A DNA stretch of 20,459 nucleotides from a virus: the IMG/VR virus record IMGVR_UViG_3300029952_000152, positions 1 through 20,459 of that record. One strand, given 5' to 3'. How positions within the stretch are numbered: the stretch's first letter is position 1; every line of letters begins with the position of its first letter. The translations under genes were made by a program, and so were the position numbers. Shown piece by piece: positions 4,648 through 19,550 of this stretch. The notes beneath the pieces are model-generated. The model was not told the origin of the DNA. It worked only from the letters and a program-made list of their open reading frames with translations, and made no database searches.

Positions 4648-5681
4648 GGCTTTTAAAAGGGGACTGTTTAGAAAAACTAGCTTCAATCGAATCGAATTCA
4701 ATTGATTCTCTTGTCACCGATCCGCCGGCCGGGATCTCGTTCATGGGGAAAGACTGGGACGACGACAAGGGCGGACGCGATGAGTGGATTAAGTGGATGA
4801 CATCCGTCATGTCCGAATGCCTCCGCGTTCTAAAGCCCGGCGCTCACGGATTAGTTTGGGCGCTCCCTCGCACGTCTCACTGGACGGCTACGGCGCTTGA
4901 GGATGCGGGCTTTGAAGTGCGGGATGTGGTCACGCACCTCTTCGGGACTGGGTTTCCGAAATCGATGAATCTTGAAAAGGCTGGCGCGGGCTTGCAATGG
5001 GCCGGATGGGGAACTGCGCTTAAGCCAGCGTCCGAGCACTGGATCTTAGTACGGAAGCCATGCTCCGAAAAAACCGTAGCGGCGAACGTCTTAAAGCACG
5101 GGACAGGCGGGATTAACATTGATGCGAGTCGGGTGCCAGGCGCATTTGAATCGGGCTGGTCTAAGTCCGGGAGTAAAGCGTCCGAAAATCTCTCGATGAG
5201 TGGGGCTAATACCGAACGGCCTCCAAAACCCGACAGCTCGACGGGCCGCTTCCCCGCGAACCTAGTCTTAGACGAAGAGGCAGCAGCGGCGCTGGATGAG
5301 CAGAGCGGATTTTCAATTACCCGCCCACATCGGACTAAACCAGCCGGAACCGACGGAGGTAATGGGATAACACTTCAATCTTACAAGATGAAGACTGATA
5401 ATTTCATGAGCCACAACGACTCAGGCGGGGCCTCTCGTTTCTTTTATGTAGCTAAAGCTTCGAAGTCCGACAAGGGTGACGGCAACACGCACCCCACCGT
5501 GAAATCCACCGCGCTGATGTCCTACCTGATTAAACTCGTCACGCCTCCGGGCGGCATCGTTCTTGACCCGTTCATGGGCAGCGGGAGCACAGGAGTGGCA
5601 GCAAAAAATGATTTTGATTTCATCGGAATTGAAAAAGATGAAGACTATTTTAAAATAGCTTCCAAAAGGATTGACGAATGA
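4644..5681 (+). CDS. DNA methyltransferase, N4/N6 amino type, beta class
   Basis: The open frame extends upstream to 4503, but the ATG at 4644 overlaps the terL stop and gives the correct N-terminus, a 345-residue protein. Motif IV is DPPA (26-29) within TDPPAGISFMGKDWD. The SAM-binding motif I is DPFMGSGSTG (308-317) near the C-terminus, so the order is that of the beta group in Pfam N6_N4_Mtase. Ala instead of Tyr in DPP[YWF] is unusual for the superfamily as a whole, but the DPPAGISFMGK stretch recurs in phage-encoded members. The region from about 155 to 265 between the motifs probably recognises the target site. It likely modifies phage DNA to evade host restriction. Both ends of the gene are noticeably AT-richer than its middle and its neighbours, which may mark it as an acquired gene. 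Confidence 0.9.
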   Translation: MRLLKGDCLEKLASIESNSIDSLVTDPPAGISFMGKDWDDDKGGRDEWIKWMTSVMSECLRVLKPGAHGLVWALPRTSHWTATALEDAGFEVRDVVTHLFGTGFPKSMNLEKAGAGLQWAGWGTALKPASEHWILVRKPCSEKTVAANVLKHGTGGINIDASRVPGAFESGWSKSGSKASENLSMSGANTERPPKPDSSTGRFPANLVLDEEAAAALDEQSGFSITRPHRTKPAGTDGGNGITLQSYKMKTDNFMSHNDSGGASRFFYVAKASKSDKGDGNTHPTVKSTALMSYLIKLVTPPGGIVLDPFMGSGSTGVAAKNDFDFIGIEKDEDYFKIASKRIDE

Positions 5682-7993
5682 AAAAAATCATCGAGCCAAA
5701 GATTCCTGGGCAGCGCATGGATAGTTGGTCGAATCTCGCGACCCTGCTCGGGACCTCTGCTGACAAACGCACGCACGCACGCGCCAACTGGGAGATGCAT
5801 CCGCCAGAGTTCTACGAGCAGCTTTACGCCGGCGGAGGCATCCCATCTCGAATCGTGGACCTCATCCCAGAGGAAGCTCTCCGTCACTGGGTTGACTGGC
5901 TCAACGTAGAAAAGGAAGACATTGAAAAAGTCATCAACCCACGCTGCGAAGAACTCGACGTCCGAGGCGCTTTGCTCAAGTCTTGGAAGTGGGGACGAGC
6001 TTACGGCGGTGCAGTTTGTCACATCGTCACTGACACCCGAGATCCTTCTAGCCCGCTCCAGGTTGGTGAAAAGGTCATCGGTCTACGCGATCTTTCGCGC
6101 TGGGACCTTCGCATTCTCACGACGGATGTGGAATTCGATTTCGGCTCACCTAACTGGGGAATGCCCAGAATTTACTATCTCAATGTCCAGATGGGCTCGC
6201 AGTTCAAGGGCTACCCGATCCACTGGACCCGCATGCTCCGGTTCGACGGACAGCTCGTCCCGCGCCGAACCTACATCCGAAACAACTACTGGCACGACTC
6301 GATTCTGAATCGTCCGTACAATGCGATCAGAAACTACGAGATTTCAAACGATGCGGCTGCGGCTTGCCTTCAGGATTTCAACGTAGACGTCTACGGCATG
6401 AAGAATCTCGCGAACCTCATCTCGGCGGGCAAGGTCGACGTTGTTCGGAACCGCATCGAGACCATCAACTATGCCAAGTCGGTTATTCGCGCGATCCTCA
6501 TCGACACCGATCAAGAGACCTACGAGAACAAATCGCGGTCGCTCGAAGGCGTCGCCGAGCTTCTCGACAAGCAATCGAACCGTCTGGTCGCTGAGACCGA
6601 TATCCCGCATACGAAACTCCTCGGTGAAAGCCCGGATGGATCTAATGCCACCGGGAACTCTACGTCTCAGAATTGGTACAACTACATCGGCACTGAGCAG
6701 TACAACTATTTGCGCCCGAAGTTAAAACGTCTGTGCGAAGTGCTATTTCCTGAGTATCCGCAGATCGACTTCAAATTCAAATCACTGCGCGTACTCGACG
6801 ATATGGAGAACGCAGACCTCAGGCTCAAGGTTGCGCAAGCCGACGACATTTACATGACCCACAACGTGATCGACCCGACTGAGGTCGCAGAGTCGCGTTT
6901 CAGCAACGATGAGTATTCGATCGAAACTAAACTCGACTGGGAAGGCCGGGAGAGCGGCGACCTCATTCCTGGCGGTCAGATGCCGGGCATGGAAGGCAAT
7001 GATCCAGGCGAAGGGATTCCAGGCACGGGCGATAAGCCCCCGGAAGGCGAGTCGACGACCTCGTCCACTAGCGGCACCGGAGAGAAATCGCTGAAAGGTG
7101 AGCCACCTCCGTCCGAGCCCGAGCCTGGGAACGATGTGCGTAACCCCGAAGGCGAAGACAAGAACCTGAAGGGCAAGCCTAAAAAGAAGTTCCCGATGGC
7201 CAACTCTAAAGGCGACGCGGATGTAGGCAACCCGACCGTAGAGGGACGCGGAGTTGAGGGTCTGTTTCAGGGCGAGAATAACCCCGGGCTTGCGTTCTAC
7301 CCGAAGAACCAAAAGCTCGAAGTCGAGAACCCAGTGCCTAAGGTCGAGTCGTTCATCTCGCAGACCATGAGCGAACCGATGCGCGATCCGCGCACTGACC
7401 CGCATATCAAGGGTCCGGGAATCCCGAATAAGCCTCGGACGTTTCTGCCGACACGCGGAAACGGAATGACCTCGCCAAGTGGATTTGACTTCGAGAAGGA
7501 CGCAGGCAGTGCAGGTGTCGCGCGCGAAGGGTCGTCGAAAGCAGTCGAGGGCGGCTCGTACTACGCGTACGATTCAGCCGACAAGCCAGAGCCAACACGC
7601 GCTGCGACCATCGTCGTACGTGATGGCGACATGATTCTGATGGGTAAGCGGAAGGACGGTCGATGGGCGCTGCCTGGCGGGCACATCGAGGCAAAGGAGA
7701 GCGCTCATCAAGGCGGCGTACGGGAGCTCGACGAAGAGACCGGACTCAAGGCCAAAAAGCTCAAGTTCCTTGGCTCTCGGCTTGTCGAGCCTGAGATGGG
7801 GAAATCCGTCGCGGTCCATATGTACGAACATAAGCATGACGGCGAGACCAAGCCAACGTTCAAGAAAGACCCCGACAAAGAGTTCGACGAGTTCCGCTGG
7901 GTCAACACGAAAGAAAAGTTACCCGATGAGATCGAAGGGAATCTCGCGCATCCGAATAATGTGGCTCTATCACATCTCGGAATGATTCGGTGA
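5678..7993 (+). CDS. Portal protein (DUF1073) fused to a C-terminal Nudix hydrolase domain
   Basis: Residues 1 to about 430 match the DUF1073 portal family, which forms the dodecameric ring at the head vertex. The characteristic LLGESPDGSNATG lies at 314-326 and is followed by a Tyr-rich helix. Residues 432 to about 635 are a long disordered linker rich in Gly, Pro, Glu and Lys, with PEGE-type repeats and a basic patch (GKPKKKF). Residues 640-771 are a complete Nudix domain. The Nudix box at 668-690 reads G-x5-E-x7-REL-x-EE-x-GL, with R682, E683, E686 and E687 all present, so it should bind Mg and hydrolyse a nucleoside diphosphate linked to another moiety. At 771 residues the protein is much longer than a simple portal. 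The start overlaps the methyltransferase stop (ATGA). The substrate is unknown. Confidence 0.88.
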   Translation: MKKIIEPKIPGQRMDSWSNLATLLGTSADKRTHARANWEMHPPEFYEQLYAGGGIPSRIVDLIPEEALRHWVDWLNVEKEDIEKVINPRCEELDVRGALLKSWKWGRAYGGAVCHIVTDTRDPSSPLQVGEKVIGLRDLSRWDLRILTTDVEFDFGSPNWGMPRIYYLNVQMGSQFKGYPIHWTRMLRFDGQLVPRRTYIRNNYWHDSILNRPYNAIRNYEISNDAAAACLQDFNVDVYGMKNLANLISAGKVDVVRNRIETINYAKSVIRAILIDTDQETYENKSRSLEGVAELLDKQSNRLVAETDIPHTKLLGESPDGSNATGNSTSQNWYNYIGTEQYNYLRPKLKRLCEVLFPEYPQIDFKFKSLRVLDDMENADLRLKVAQADDIYMTHNVIDPTEVAESRFSNDEYSIETKLDWEGRESGDLIPGGQMPGMEGNDPGEGIPGTGDKPPEGESTTSSTSGTGEKSLKGEPPPSEPEPGNDVRNPEGEDKNLKGKPKKKFPMANSKGDADVGNPTVEGRGVEGLFQGENNPGLAFYPKNQKLEVENPVPKVESFISQTMSEPMRDPRTDPHIKGPGIPNKPRTFLPTRGNGMTSPSGFDFEKDAGSAGVAREGSSKAVEGGSYYAYDSADKPEPTRAATIVVRDGDMILMGKRKDGRWALPGGHIEAKESAHQGGVRELDEETGLKAKKLKFLGSRLVEPEMGKSVAVHMYEHKHDGETKPTFKKDPDKEFDEFRWVNTKEKLPDEIEGNLAHPNNVALSHLGMIR

Positions 7994-14957: not shown

Positions 14958-15544
14958 GCTATCCGGCCGGGACTTTAAACCTTGTTCTGATCCAGGACGC
15001 AATATACGATTGGATCGAAGGTATTACTCAAGGCGTTTTCCCCGAAGGCGAGGAGGGGGAGCATATCCAATGGATGGATCAATCTGCACCGCTACAGGCA
15101 CGCCCGCTCGTTACGTTGAAAATCATCGACGGTCCGCGCCCAATCGGGCGTTCGGCGAATCTCTTTTTCAACCCCGACGAGAGCACCAAGCTGAATCCGT
15201 TCTCGGTAGGCATGCAGATGGAAATGACGCTATCCGTGCAGGTGTTCGGAAACACCAACATTCACCGGCCGATGGCTATGCAACTCTCGATGGACCTGAA
15301 CTCGTCGCTGATGCGGCAAAGCGTCTTGGACAAACTGAAAGCGGCCGGGATCTCTGTTCAGGAAGTGGGTCGGCCTCGGAATCTTACGGCGCTCGAAGAG
15401 ACGGCCTACGAGGAGCGCAGCGGGTTCGAACTTACGCTCGGACTGGCTCAGAACCTAAGCGATCAACCGGGCGTGATCGAAACCGTGAACCTGGAAATCG
15501 AAACGCCTTCCGGAAACAGAACCAAAAGCATAGTTTTACCCTAG
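14954..15544 (+). CDS. Neck / tail terminator protein (LIC_12616-like)
   Basis: This 196-residue protein has the layout of the phage neck terminator family labelled LIC_12616 or gp12-like: an N-terminal helix (LVLIQDAIYDWIEGIT), a central sheet with PLVTLKIIDGPRPIG and EMTLSVQVFGN, a helix (MAMQLSMDLNSSL) and a conserved end with ALEETAYEERSGFELTLGLAQ. Such proteins cap the tail tube and join it to the neck. It overlaps the previous gene as ATGA and is followed by an AGGAGG site for the sheath gene. Confidence 0.8.
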   Translation: MSYPAGTLNLVLIQDAIYDWIEGITQGVFPEGEEGEHIQWMDQSAPLQARPLVTLKIIDGPRPIGRSANLFFNPDESTKLNPFSVGMQMEMTLSVQVFGNTNIHRPMAMQLSMDLNSSLMRQSVLDKLKAAGISVQEVGRPRNLTALEETAYEERSGFELTLGLAQNLSDQPGVIETVNLEIETPSGNRTKSIVLP

Positions 15545-16918: not shown

Positions 16919-17380
16919 ATGCCTAGTGGAATTACCCGAAAATATGCGCCGGATGACGTAACAGTCACGATCGGAACCCAGACCGGAAGCGGCTTCTTAG
17001 AAGGAACTTTCGTCGAGTGCGAACGCGATAACGATACCGGCGAAATCAGCACTGGATCCGACGGAGAAGCGACGCTCGTGATCAGCCCCGTTCAAAAGGG
17101 CAAAATCAAGCTGACCTTCCAGCAAGCGAGCCCGCTGAACGACTACTTGAACACTCTGTTTCAAGCCCTTCAGCAAAAAAACCTCTCCGTCGCCGTTGTG
17201 CCTTTTCGGCTCAGCGACAAAAACGGAACGACCGTCGTGCAAGCGAGCCAGGTCGTCGTCAATAAGCCGGTGAAAGTCGGCTTCGGCGACAAACCTGAGG
17301 GCCGTGAATGGACTCTGATCACCGGATACCTCGACATCGAAGCCGGCGGCGAGTTCAACGTGAGCACTGGCGCTCTTTAA
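16919..17380 (+). CDS. Tail tube protein (DUF3277 family)
   Basis: It has a strong TTAGGAGGA site. The 153-residue beta-rich protein begins MPSGITRKYAPDDVTVTIGT and has the ERDNDTGEISTGSDGEATLV segment typical of DUF3277, followed by a helix (DYLNTLFQALQQKN) and LITGYLDIEAGGEFN at the end. Tubes of contractile tails stack as hexameric rings of this fold inside the sheath. Position directly after the sheath gene agrees. Confidence 0.88.
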   Translation: MPSGITRKYAPDDVTVTIGTQTGSGFLEGTFVECERDNDTGEISTGSDGEATLVISPVQKGKIKLTFQQASPLNDYLNTLFQALQQKNLSVAVVPFRLSDKNGTTVVQASQVVVNKPVKVGFGDKPEGREWTLITGYLDIEAGGEFNVSTGAL

Positions 17381-17414: not shown

Positions 17415-17870
17415 ATGAGTGAAATGCACAAAGAAGTCACAGTTGATGGGTTCAGATATCTGGTCTCCCACGCGCAAGTTGAACTCGCGTGGGAGATCGG
17501 TGTTGATCTCATGAAAATGATTGGTGGTTCGGCAGCTTCGATGGCTGGGGCGTCTGGTTCAGATGCAAGCCTGTCCTCGGCGCTCACTGCGGCCACGACT
17601 CTTTTTCTGTCCAAGCTCGATCCGAAAGAATCGATGAAACTCATGAAACGGATTCTATCCACGATTGAGGTTCAGGGGACGACTGACGGTGAGAACAAGA
17701 AAATCCTCCTGAACGAAGTCGGCATCAAAACCCACTTTCACGGCCGGATTGGATCGATGATGCGAGTCGTGGGCGAGGCGGTTGCCTTCACGCACGAGGA
17801 TTTTTTCGATGCTATTGGGGACGGGATAGCGACGATGATGCAGAAAGCGACGGAGAAAGCGGCGGCGTAA
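17415..17870 (+). CDS. Tail assembly chaperone, short form
   Basis: This 151-residue helical protein sits between the tube and the tape measure, the standard place for tail assembly chaperones (lambda G, T4-type equivalents), which bind the tape measure during tail assembly and are absent from the mature tail. The middle is Ala/Ser-rich. The C-terminal region GRIGSMMRVVGEAVAFTHEDFFDAIGDGI resembles that of other phage tail chaperones. Frame 0 ends at TAA at 17868, but the -1 frame stays open through the end, and a slippery T-TTT-TTC heptamer lies at 17801-17807, giving a longer form. Confidence 0.75.
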   Translation: MSEMHKEVTVDGFRYLVSHAQVELAWEIGVDLMKMIGGSAASMAGASGSDASLSSALTAATTLFLSKLDPKESMKLMKRILSTIEVQGTTDGENKKILLNEVGIKTHFHGRIGSMMRVVGEAVAFTHEDFFDAIGDGIATMMQKATEKAAA

Positions 17871-18067
17871 CTGTCCCGGTTCCGGACGGCATGTGCTGGC
17901 CGGTCATGAGATTGGTGAATGAGGGCCACGACTACGGATTGATTCTGAAGGGGTGGACCCTCCCGATGGTTCTAAGGGCGAATAAGGCTCTGGACGTTCA
18001 AGAGAAGGCCAATACGTTGTCAGCCAGAAAGGCTAGGTCTCAAAGTGGGTCTGGGTCAGGTTCTTAG
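17415..18067 (+). CDS. Tail assembly chaperone, -1 frameshift long form
   Basis: The coordinates span the two joined segments 17415-17807 and 17807-18067. At the heptamer T-TTT-TTC (17801-17807, in the X-XXY-YYZ phase), slipping back one base would let ribosomes continue past the TAA into an 86-residue extension, a total of 217 residues. The extension begins with an acidic stretch, then VTVPVPDGMCWPV, NEGHDYGLILKGW and LPMVLRANKALDVQEKANTL, and ends in a Ser/Gly tail. It overlaps the tape measure start by 23 bases. GCTAT (17811-17815) and ATAGC (17826-17830) form a hairpin three bases past the slip site, which could stimulate shifting. Lambda G/GT and many other phages make a long form this way. 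The alternative is a separate gene starting at ATG 17891, but no ribosome-binding site precedes it. Confidence 0.65.
17801..17830 (+). promoter_or_regulatory. Programmed -1 frameshift site with downstream hairpin
   Basis: TTTTTTC at 17801-17807 is in the phase required for tandem slippage of both tRNAs (TTT and TTC codons). The hairpin GCTAT-loop-ATAGC follows three bases later. The -1 frame has no stop for a long stretch upstream and is open downstream to 18067. Confidence 0.6.
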
Positions 18068-19550
18068 AGAGTTTGGAGTCAAGGTCTCGCTGTCATTTGA
18101 CGGCAAGGCAGTGGACCAAGCTGAGAGCCGAATCAAGAAATTCTCTTCCGAGATGAAAAGTTTCGCGCTCGAAGTCGCGGGCGTGAGCGCTGGACTTTTC
18201 GCTACTGGGAAAAGCTTTTCTCACTTTAGTCGCGAGGTAGTGGACCAAGCGGACGGACTCGGAATCACGACTGACGCCCTTCAGGAGTACGAATACGCGG
18301 CCGGCGTCGCGGCCGACGCGACTCGCGAAGACGTCGTTGGTGCGTTTAAGAACTTAGGCGACACGCTCGACAAGGCTCGCGCGGGCGTGCCCGAGGCGTC
18401 GCAAGCGCTCTACAATATGGCTGCGGCGGGCGGAAAAACGAAAGAGATGCTCGCCGCCATTCAGAATCCGATGACGAAAGTCAGCGACGTGGCGTTGCTC
18501 CTTTCGAGCGGAATTCAAAAGATGTCGGAGAAAAACCCGCTCGCCGCTCGTCGTATGACGGAGCTCGCGTACGGGAGCGACAAGCTTTATAACCTCTGGC
18601 GAAAAGGTCCTGACGCCATCAAGGCTCTGAACTCCGAGGCGGATAAGAACTCAGTACTCAATGAAAAGATGCTTCGCGAAGGCAAGCTCATGGATCAGCA
18701 AATCACCAAGCTGTGGTTTGTCTTCCGTAAGTTTGGTCTTGAAATCGGCGCTAAAATCATGCCTCACGTGATGAAACTCGTGGGGCAATTCGAGAAATGG
18801 TTTAAGGCAAATCAAAAACTTATCGCGTCCGGAATCACCGGGTTCTTAGACACGCTCGCGAATGTTCTCGAGGGCGTGTTCGATGCCGGCGTTGGAATCA
18901 TCAAGTTTCTCGAGCCAATGATCGCGGCTCTTGGCGGCGCTTCACAAGTGGTGAAGGACTTAGTCTACGCTTTCGTTGCGTTCAAGACGATCAGCATCGC
19001 CTCTTCTTTTCTTTCGATGGGGTTCGCGATTGCGAAGTTCGCGGCGACACTCCTCGGAATTGGTCCGACGTTCTCCACTATTGCGAGTTCAATCGGCGGA
19101 CTCGCAGGGACGATTGGAAGTTTCCTTGGCGGACTGACCGCTGTAGTCGCGGCCGGATGGGCAGGGTACGAGCTTGCGACGAAGCTGAACGACTACATCG
19201 ATAGTAAAACCGGCGGTCAGGGTATCGGCGGGAAACTCTACGATCTGATTCATCCCGATGAACAAAAAGAAATCCTGAATCAAGCGGGTCCGAAATCAAA
19301 AGTTGCAAGCGCCCCGCGCGTGGCTCCTTTCAGCCAGGTCGGCCCGACCGCTGCGTACGCTGGCGGAGGCACTAGTCAAGGTCCGGTCGTGAACCAAACT
19401 CACAACGTCGTGAATAACTTGACCGTATCCACTCCAGAGAAAGCGACCGTTTCTGACACAGCGACTGCCGCTAAGAAGGCTCAAACCGACGCGAATGAAA
19501 TGGCGATGAGAAAAGCCAAGGCCGACGCGGCCCGGACGAGGGTGTACTAA
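18045..19550 (+). CDS. Tail tape measure protein
   Basis: The start is GTG at 18045, within the chaperone's extension frame, with only a weak AGG site, so translational coupling is likely. The 501-residue product begins with helical segments (GKAVDQAESRIKKFSSEMKS). Residues about 266-298 and 306-382 are long hydrophobic stretches with Gly, Ala, Phe and Ile, typical of tape measure proteins that insert into the host envelope. The C-terminus is Ala/Thr/Gln-rich and basic and probably disordered. At about 1.5 angstrom per residue, 501 residues predict a short tail of roughly 75 nm. No lysozyme or peptidase domain is evident. Confidence 0.85.
   Translation: MGLGQVLREFGVKVSLSFDGKAVDQAESRIKKFSSEMKSFALEVAGVSAGLFATGKSFSHFSREVVDQADGLGITTDALQEYEYAAGVAADATREDVVGAFKNLGDTLDKARAGVPEASQALYNMAAAGGKTKEMLAAIQNPMTKVSDVALLLSSGIQKMSEKNPLAARRMTELAYGSDKLYNLWRKGPDAIKALNSEADKNSVLNEKMLREGKLMDQQITKLWFVFRKFGLEIGAKIMPHVMKLVGQFEKWFKANQKLIASGITGFLDTLANVLEGVFDAGVGIIKFLEPMIAALGGASQVVKDLVYAFVAFKTISIASSFLSMGFAIAKFAATLLGIGPTFSTIASSIGGLAGTIGSFLGGLTAVVAAGWAGYELATKLNDYIDSKTGGQGIGGKLYDLIHPDEQKEILNQAGPKSKVASAPRVAPFSQVGPTAAYAGGGTSQGPVVNQTHNVVNNLTVSTPEKATVSDTATAAKKAQTDANEMAMRKAKADAARTRVY

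Follow-up and report, generated by a model that had tools for sequence, protein, structure and literature searches.

Programmed frameshifting at the tail assembly chaperone gene is already known from many tailed phages, and the locus described here appears to be a well-supported case of it, one that opens no new question. In phage lambda, which has a non-contractile tail as well as another heptamer and another chaperone family, a short and a frameshifted long chaperone (gpG and gpGT) are encoded between the tail tube and tape measure genes, as at our locus. The product ratio and the interactions of the lambda proteins are known by experiment, whereas the system reported here is known from its sequence, and gpG/gpGT constitutes the experimental model for chaperone function (PMC5009743).

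A conserved -1 frameshift at the chaperone locus has also been described in Vandenendeviridae (Adele), and Andersonviridae were found to share a GTTTTT motif with them (PMC12846349, 2025). Members of these families (Pseudomonas phage Adele, Citrobacter phage Moogle) and the 20,459-bp virus record analysed here, referred to as the window, have in common a related chaperone and tail module with the same gene order, and a -1 frame that is open from near the 3' end of the chaperone gene to the tape measure gene; however, their extensions are not alignable with that of the window by plain BLAST, and in the Pseudomonas members the run of five or six T lies in another phase, so that the exact heptamer differs. 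The Moogle record already annotates the two frames as a joined gene, and both Moogle and BPS15Q2 carry TTTTTTC in phase.

An in-phase TTTTTTC or TTTTTTG followed by a -1 extension was identified in seven annotated phages (Felix O1-like, rV5-like, Chaseviridae, Shewanella, Klebsiella). Chaseviridae (Fifi44), rV5-like phages (V5, ABPH49), Shewanella phage MSO-5 and Klebsiella phage P18-100 share the in-phase TTTTTTC of the window (TTTTTTG in P18-100), and have extensions of 77-119 codons whose linkers are unlike that of the window in sequence and length; a hairpin comparable to that of the window was not established in them. Searching annotated phages by tblastn with the window's chaperone and extension, nothing was found.

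Two further arrangements were observed among described phages. In the Pseudomonas phages L014, L015, L024 and L027-L029 the phase is GTT TTT, on which a slip would not be of the classical X_XXY_YYZ type. In Aeribacillus phage AP45 (L019:5201-5663) a -1 extension is lacking; the open frame there is +1, extending from 5430 to 5663 immediately ahead of the tape measure gene, and this could point to a +1 frameshift.

Gene order and anatomy of the chaperone locus

The chaperone gene of the window lies between the tail tube and tape measure genes (order tube-chaperone-tape measure), and the features considered in this work are the following:

16919-17380, + strand: tail tube-like protein, upstream (PF11681, 4.2e-8; phrog_280, 4.1e-28)
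17415-17870, + strand: tail assembly chaperone, short form, 151 aa, Phage_TAC_15 (PF21822, E=1.7e-12; AlphaFold pLDDT 85.7)
17801-17807, + strand: slippery heptamer T_TTT_TTC, in phase; conserved in relatives and annotated phages
17807-18067, + strand: -1-frame extension, 86 codons and stop; acidic linker, then a predicted three-helix T-like domain
17811-17830, + strand: possible stimulatory hairpin, separated from the heptamer by 3 nt; 6-bp stem, 8-nt loop (folding, relatives)
17891-17893, + strand: ATG within the extension, candidate internal start, disfavoured (no Shine-Dalgarno, unconserved)
18045-19550, + strand: tape measure protein, downstream, GTG start (phrog_8125, 7.6e-12; relatives align from residue 1)

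We conclude that a -1 programmed ribosomal frameshift very probably makes two forms of this myophage tail assembly chaperone. That a long and a short chaperone arise in this way had been proposed in the initial annotation, and the proposal is now supported by the sequence anatomy, protein family, synteny, and conservation of the heptamer and of the -1 frame observed for the window's system.

The ORF at 17415-17870 scored 48.4 bits against PF21822, with a curated cut-off of 22; the same family was matched by 6/6 aligned members of the chaperone set, and PHROG tail assembly chaperones were likewise matched by the ORF. Its AlphaFold model resembled viral tail assembly chaperones in Foldseek searches, the Moogle long form being among the matches with a weaker score; against the PDB, the model gave weak matches only, and sequence searches gave no meaningful match. 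The other neighbours of the chaperone are a tail sheath (DUF3383, phrog_205) and a Dit-like protein. A scan of genome contigs found no relative.

Elsewhere in the window, a gene for an N6/N4 DNA methylase (PF01555, 4641-5681) separates the gene for the large terminase from that for the portal, and the portal ORF (5678-7993) ends in a C-terminal NUDIX hydrolase domain (PF06381 at residues 46-390, PF00293 at residues 640-747). L030-L035 and L037 show the portal and nudix matches in this order too, the single continuous ORF having been checked in the window only, and in L038-L040 the portal has no nudix match after it.

In the chaperone frame, positions 17801-17807 are read as T, TTT, TTC. Between 17693 and a TAG at 18065-18067 the -1 frame contains no stop codon; it runs past the short-form stop (17868-17870), and its end at 18067 overlaps the likely tape measure start (GTG at 18045) by 23 nt; a slipped product would comprise 131 + 86 = 217 aa, compared with 151 aa for the short form. 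Both the TTTTTTC heptamer in correct phase and the open extension of 86 residues reaching the tape measure start, as initially annotated, are thus borne out. Among synonymous recodings of the chaperone gene, 5.6% had by chance a slippery heptamer in phase, with AAA or TTT as its second triplet, within the terminal stretch open in the -1 frame; at this rate a single sequence is only suggestive, and it is conservation that decides the case for the heptamer.

We infer the slippage, its efficiency and the functions of both forms as follows. On most ribosomes TTT TTC would be decoded without a slip and translation would end at 17868-17870, producing the 151-aa short form. A minority would move back by one base on T_TTT_TTC as tRNA-Phe re-pairs in both the P site and the A site, and the hairpin 3 nt downstream might assist in this. 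In the 217-aa long form, a small helical domain, preceded by the acidic linker, would stand in place of the last 20 residues of the short form. If the system works as gpG/gpGT of lambda does, the tape measure protein would be coated with many copies of the short form and few of the long one, whose additional domain would recruit tail tube subunits.

Conservation of the slippery site and probable entry into the -1 frame

Conservation of the heptamer and of the -1 frame had been suggested as a check. IMG/VR was queried with the tail tube, chaperone, extension and capsid, yielding two near-identical contigs and six separate relatives (L032, L034, L035, L036, L038 and L040; L005 is the same contig as L032). 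All six separate relatives keep an in-phase TTTTTTC or TTTTTTA together with a -1 extension (in L040 the heptamer is TTTTTTA at 15352, with the frame assigned by hand), and the site and the frame are retained in close as well as distant homologues, with identities to the window of 27-61% in the chaperone, where assessed, and of 23-61% in the extension. The chaperone frameshift therefore appears to persist, with the same T run, in poorly sampled uncultured contractile-tailed phages.

This distribution bears on two other origins of the two frames. Transcriptional slippage on the T run, instead of slippage by the ribosome, could make the long form, and the six-T run is located exactly at the junction; but bacterial polymerase slippage usually needs runs longer than six bases, and an in-phase X_XXY_YYZ that ends in C, A or G depending on the relative is in keeping with tandem slippage of tRNAs, and we consider a transcriptional origin highly improbable. 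Homopolymer runs are also prone to indel errors, by which one gene might appear split through a sequencing or assembly indel; to this we give almost no weight, as the same T6 run and phase, with both frames intact, recur across independent contigs as well as finished phage genomes.

Substitution patterns are consistent with translation of the -1 frame. Once past the stop of the chaperone, this frame displays a coding-type bias, with third codon positions changing most in 10/10 pairs. Within the overlap, third-position changes in the chaperone frame are reduced relative to the upstream part between the window and L032 (5/22 versus 76/130, P=0.002) and between the window and L034 (7/22 versus 86/124, P=0.001); in the other pairs the reduction is weaker or lacks significance, as for the window with L035 (P=0.28) and L036 (P=0.13). 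The pairs compared have sequences in common and are not independent.

A third explanation dispenses with the frameshift altogether: positions 17891-18067 would constitute a separate small gene of 58 aa with an ATG start of its own, an outcome that had been named as refuting the proposed mechanism. The downstream piece is often called as a separate gene by annotators of related phages, and an ATG is found at the position of 17891, the only candidate internal ATG of the extension, also in L032, L034 and L036. However, the codon is TTG in L035, the aligned Leu codon of L038 is CTG, and the ATG is absent at that place in L038 and L040. Nor does 17891 have a recognisable Shine-Dalgarno motif, its best anti-Shine-Dalgarno score being -2.9 kcal/mol compared with about -6.5 to -10.4 kcal/mol for most neighbouring late genes; since scores are weak at some real starts of the window as well (small terminase -0.9, large terminase -0.1), this value alone would not exclude a start. 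Furthermore, protein conservation in the -1 frame reaches back ahead of this ATG, to include a V-[TS]-x-x-[VI]-P-[DE] segment; ribosomes have therefore most likely entered that frame by the time they reach 17891. A separate gene would also leave the conserved in-phase T6 run unexplained. With so little in favour of an own start, a separate gene seems very unlikely, and ribosomal frameshifting is the favoured reading.

The downstream hairpin and the extension domain

The initial annotation also pointed to a hairpin immediately downstream of the heptamer. It exists, with 17811-17816 pairing with 17825-17830 (-6.3 kcal/mol, z -3.6 against dinucleotide shuffles), and its six pairs form in the window, L032, L034 and L035 (24/24 cells), the four closest sequences; it is less decisive than it had seemed, being partly forced by the protein. 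Compared with synonymous recodings that keep the protein, the energy in the window is not unusual (z -0.03), and only L034 (P 0.06) and L035 (0.035) approach significance in this test. The exact 6-bp stem appears in 8.6% of window recodings, all six pairs occur in about 8% per sequence, and 50/500 column shuffles pair equally well. One stem pair carries a compensatory change from U-A to G-C, whereby both of its sides differ; two more are classed as one-side changes. The stem is not common to L036 and L038, whose own hairpins are not significant. Because the amino acid sequence partly forces the stem, the hairpin is moderately supported, as a plausible frameshift stimulator. Also considered was a larger fold, spanning 17808-17890 (z -1.8); it failed to recur in L005 and was rejected.

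For the extension, the layout initially described was an acidic stretch, a folded segment and a Ser/Gly tail. Of these, the acidic stretch is confirmed and shows partial conservation, and the AlphaFold model of the 86 residues predicts a disordered acidic first quarter followed by helices at 31-38, 43-49 and 52-83, with a core pLDDT above 90. The third part, the Ser/Gly tail, occurs in the window alone and is not conserved. A Foldseek search of BFVD with the extension gave no significant match.

It is possible, and we propose it tentatively, that the hairpin 3 nt after the site is kept by paired synonymous changes and tunes the frameshift, and that the extension is a divergent tube-recruiting domain with an acidic linker; if true, this hairpin-tuned version would be a sub-variant of a known system and not a new mechanism.

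Relationships of the extension domain were traced through L038, whose extension matches that of the window (tblastn, 3e-4) and is in turn matched by phrog_4364 (1.9e-6), a family without assigned function that also matches the extensions of P18-100, Fifi44 and MSO-5 (down to 7.5e-28). Direct profile-profile comparison (hhalign) of the window's extension group with the extensions of these phages was not significant by probability, and homology of the window's domain to theirs therefore rests on the L038 bridge. As for phrog_4364 itself, it is apparently the C-terminal part of frameshifted tail chaperones; tying such small orphan genes beside tape measure genes to the long chaperone form would correct their annotations.
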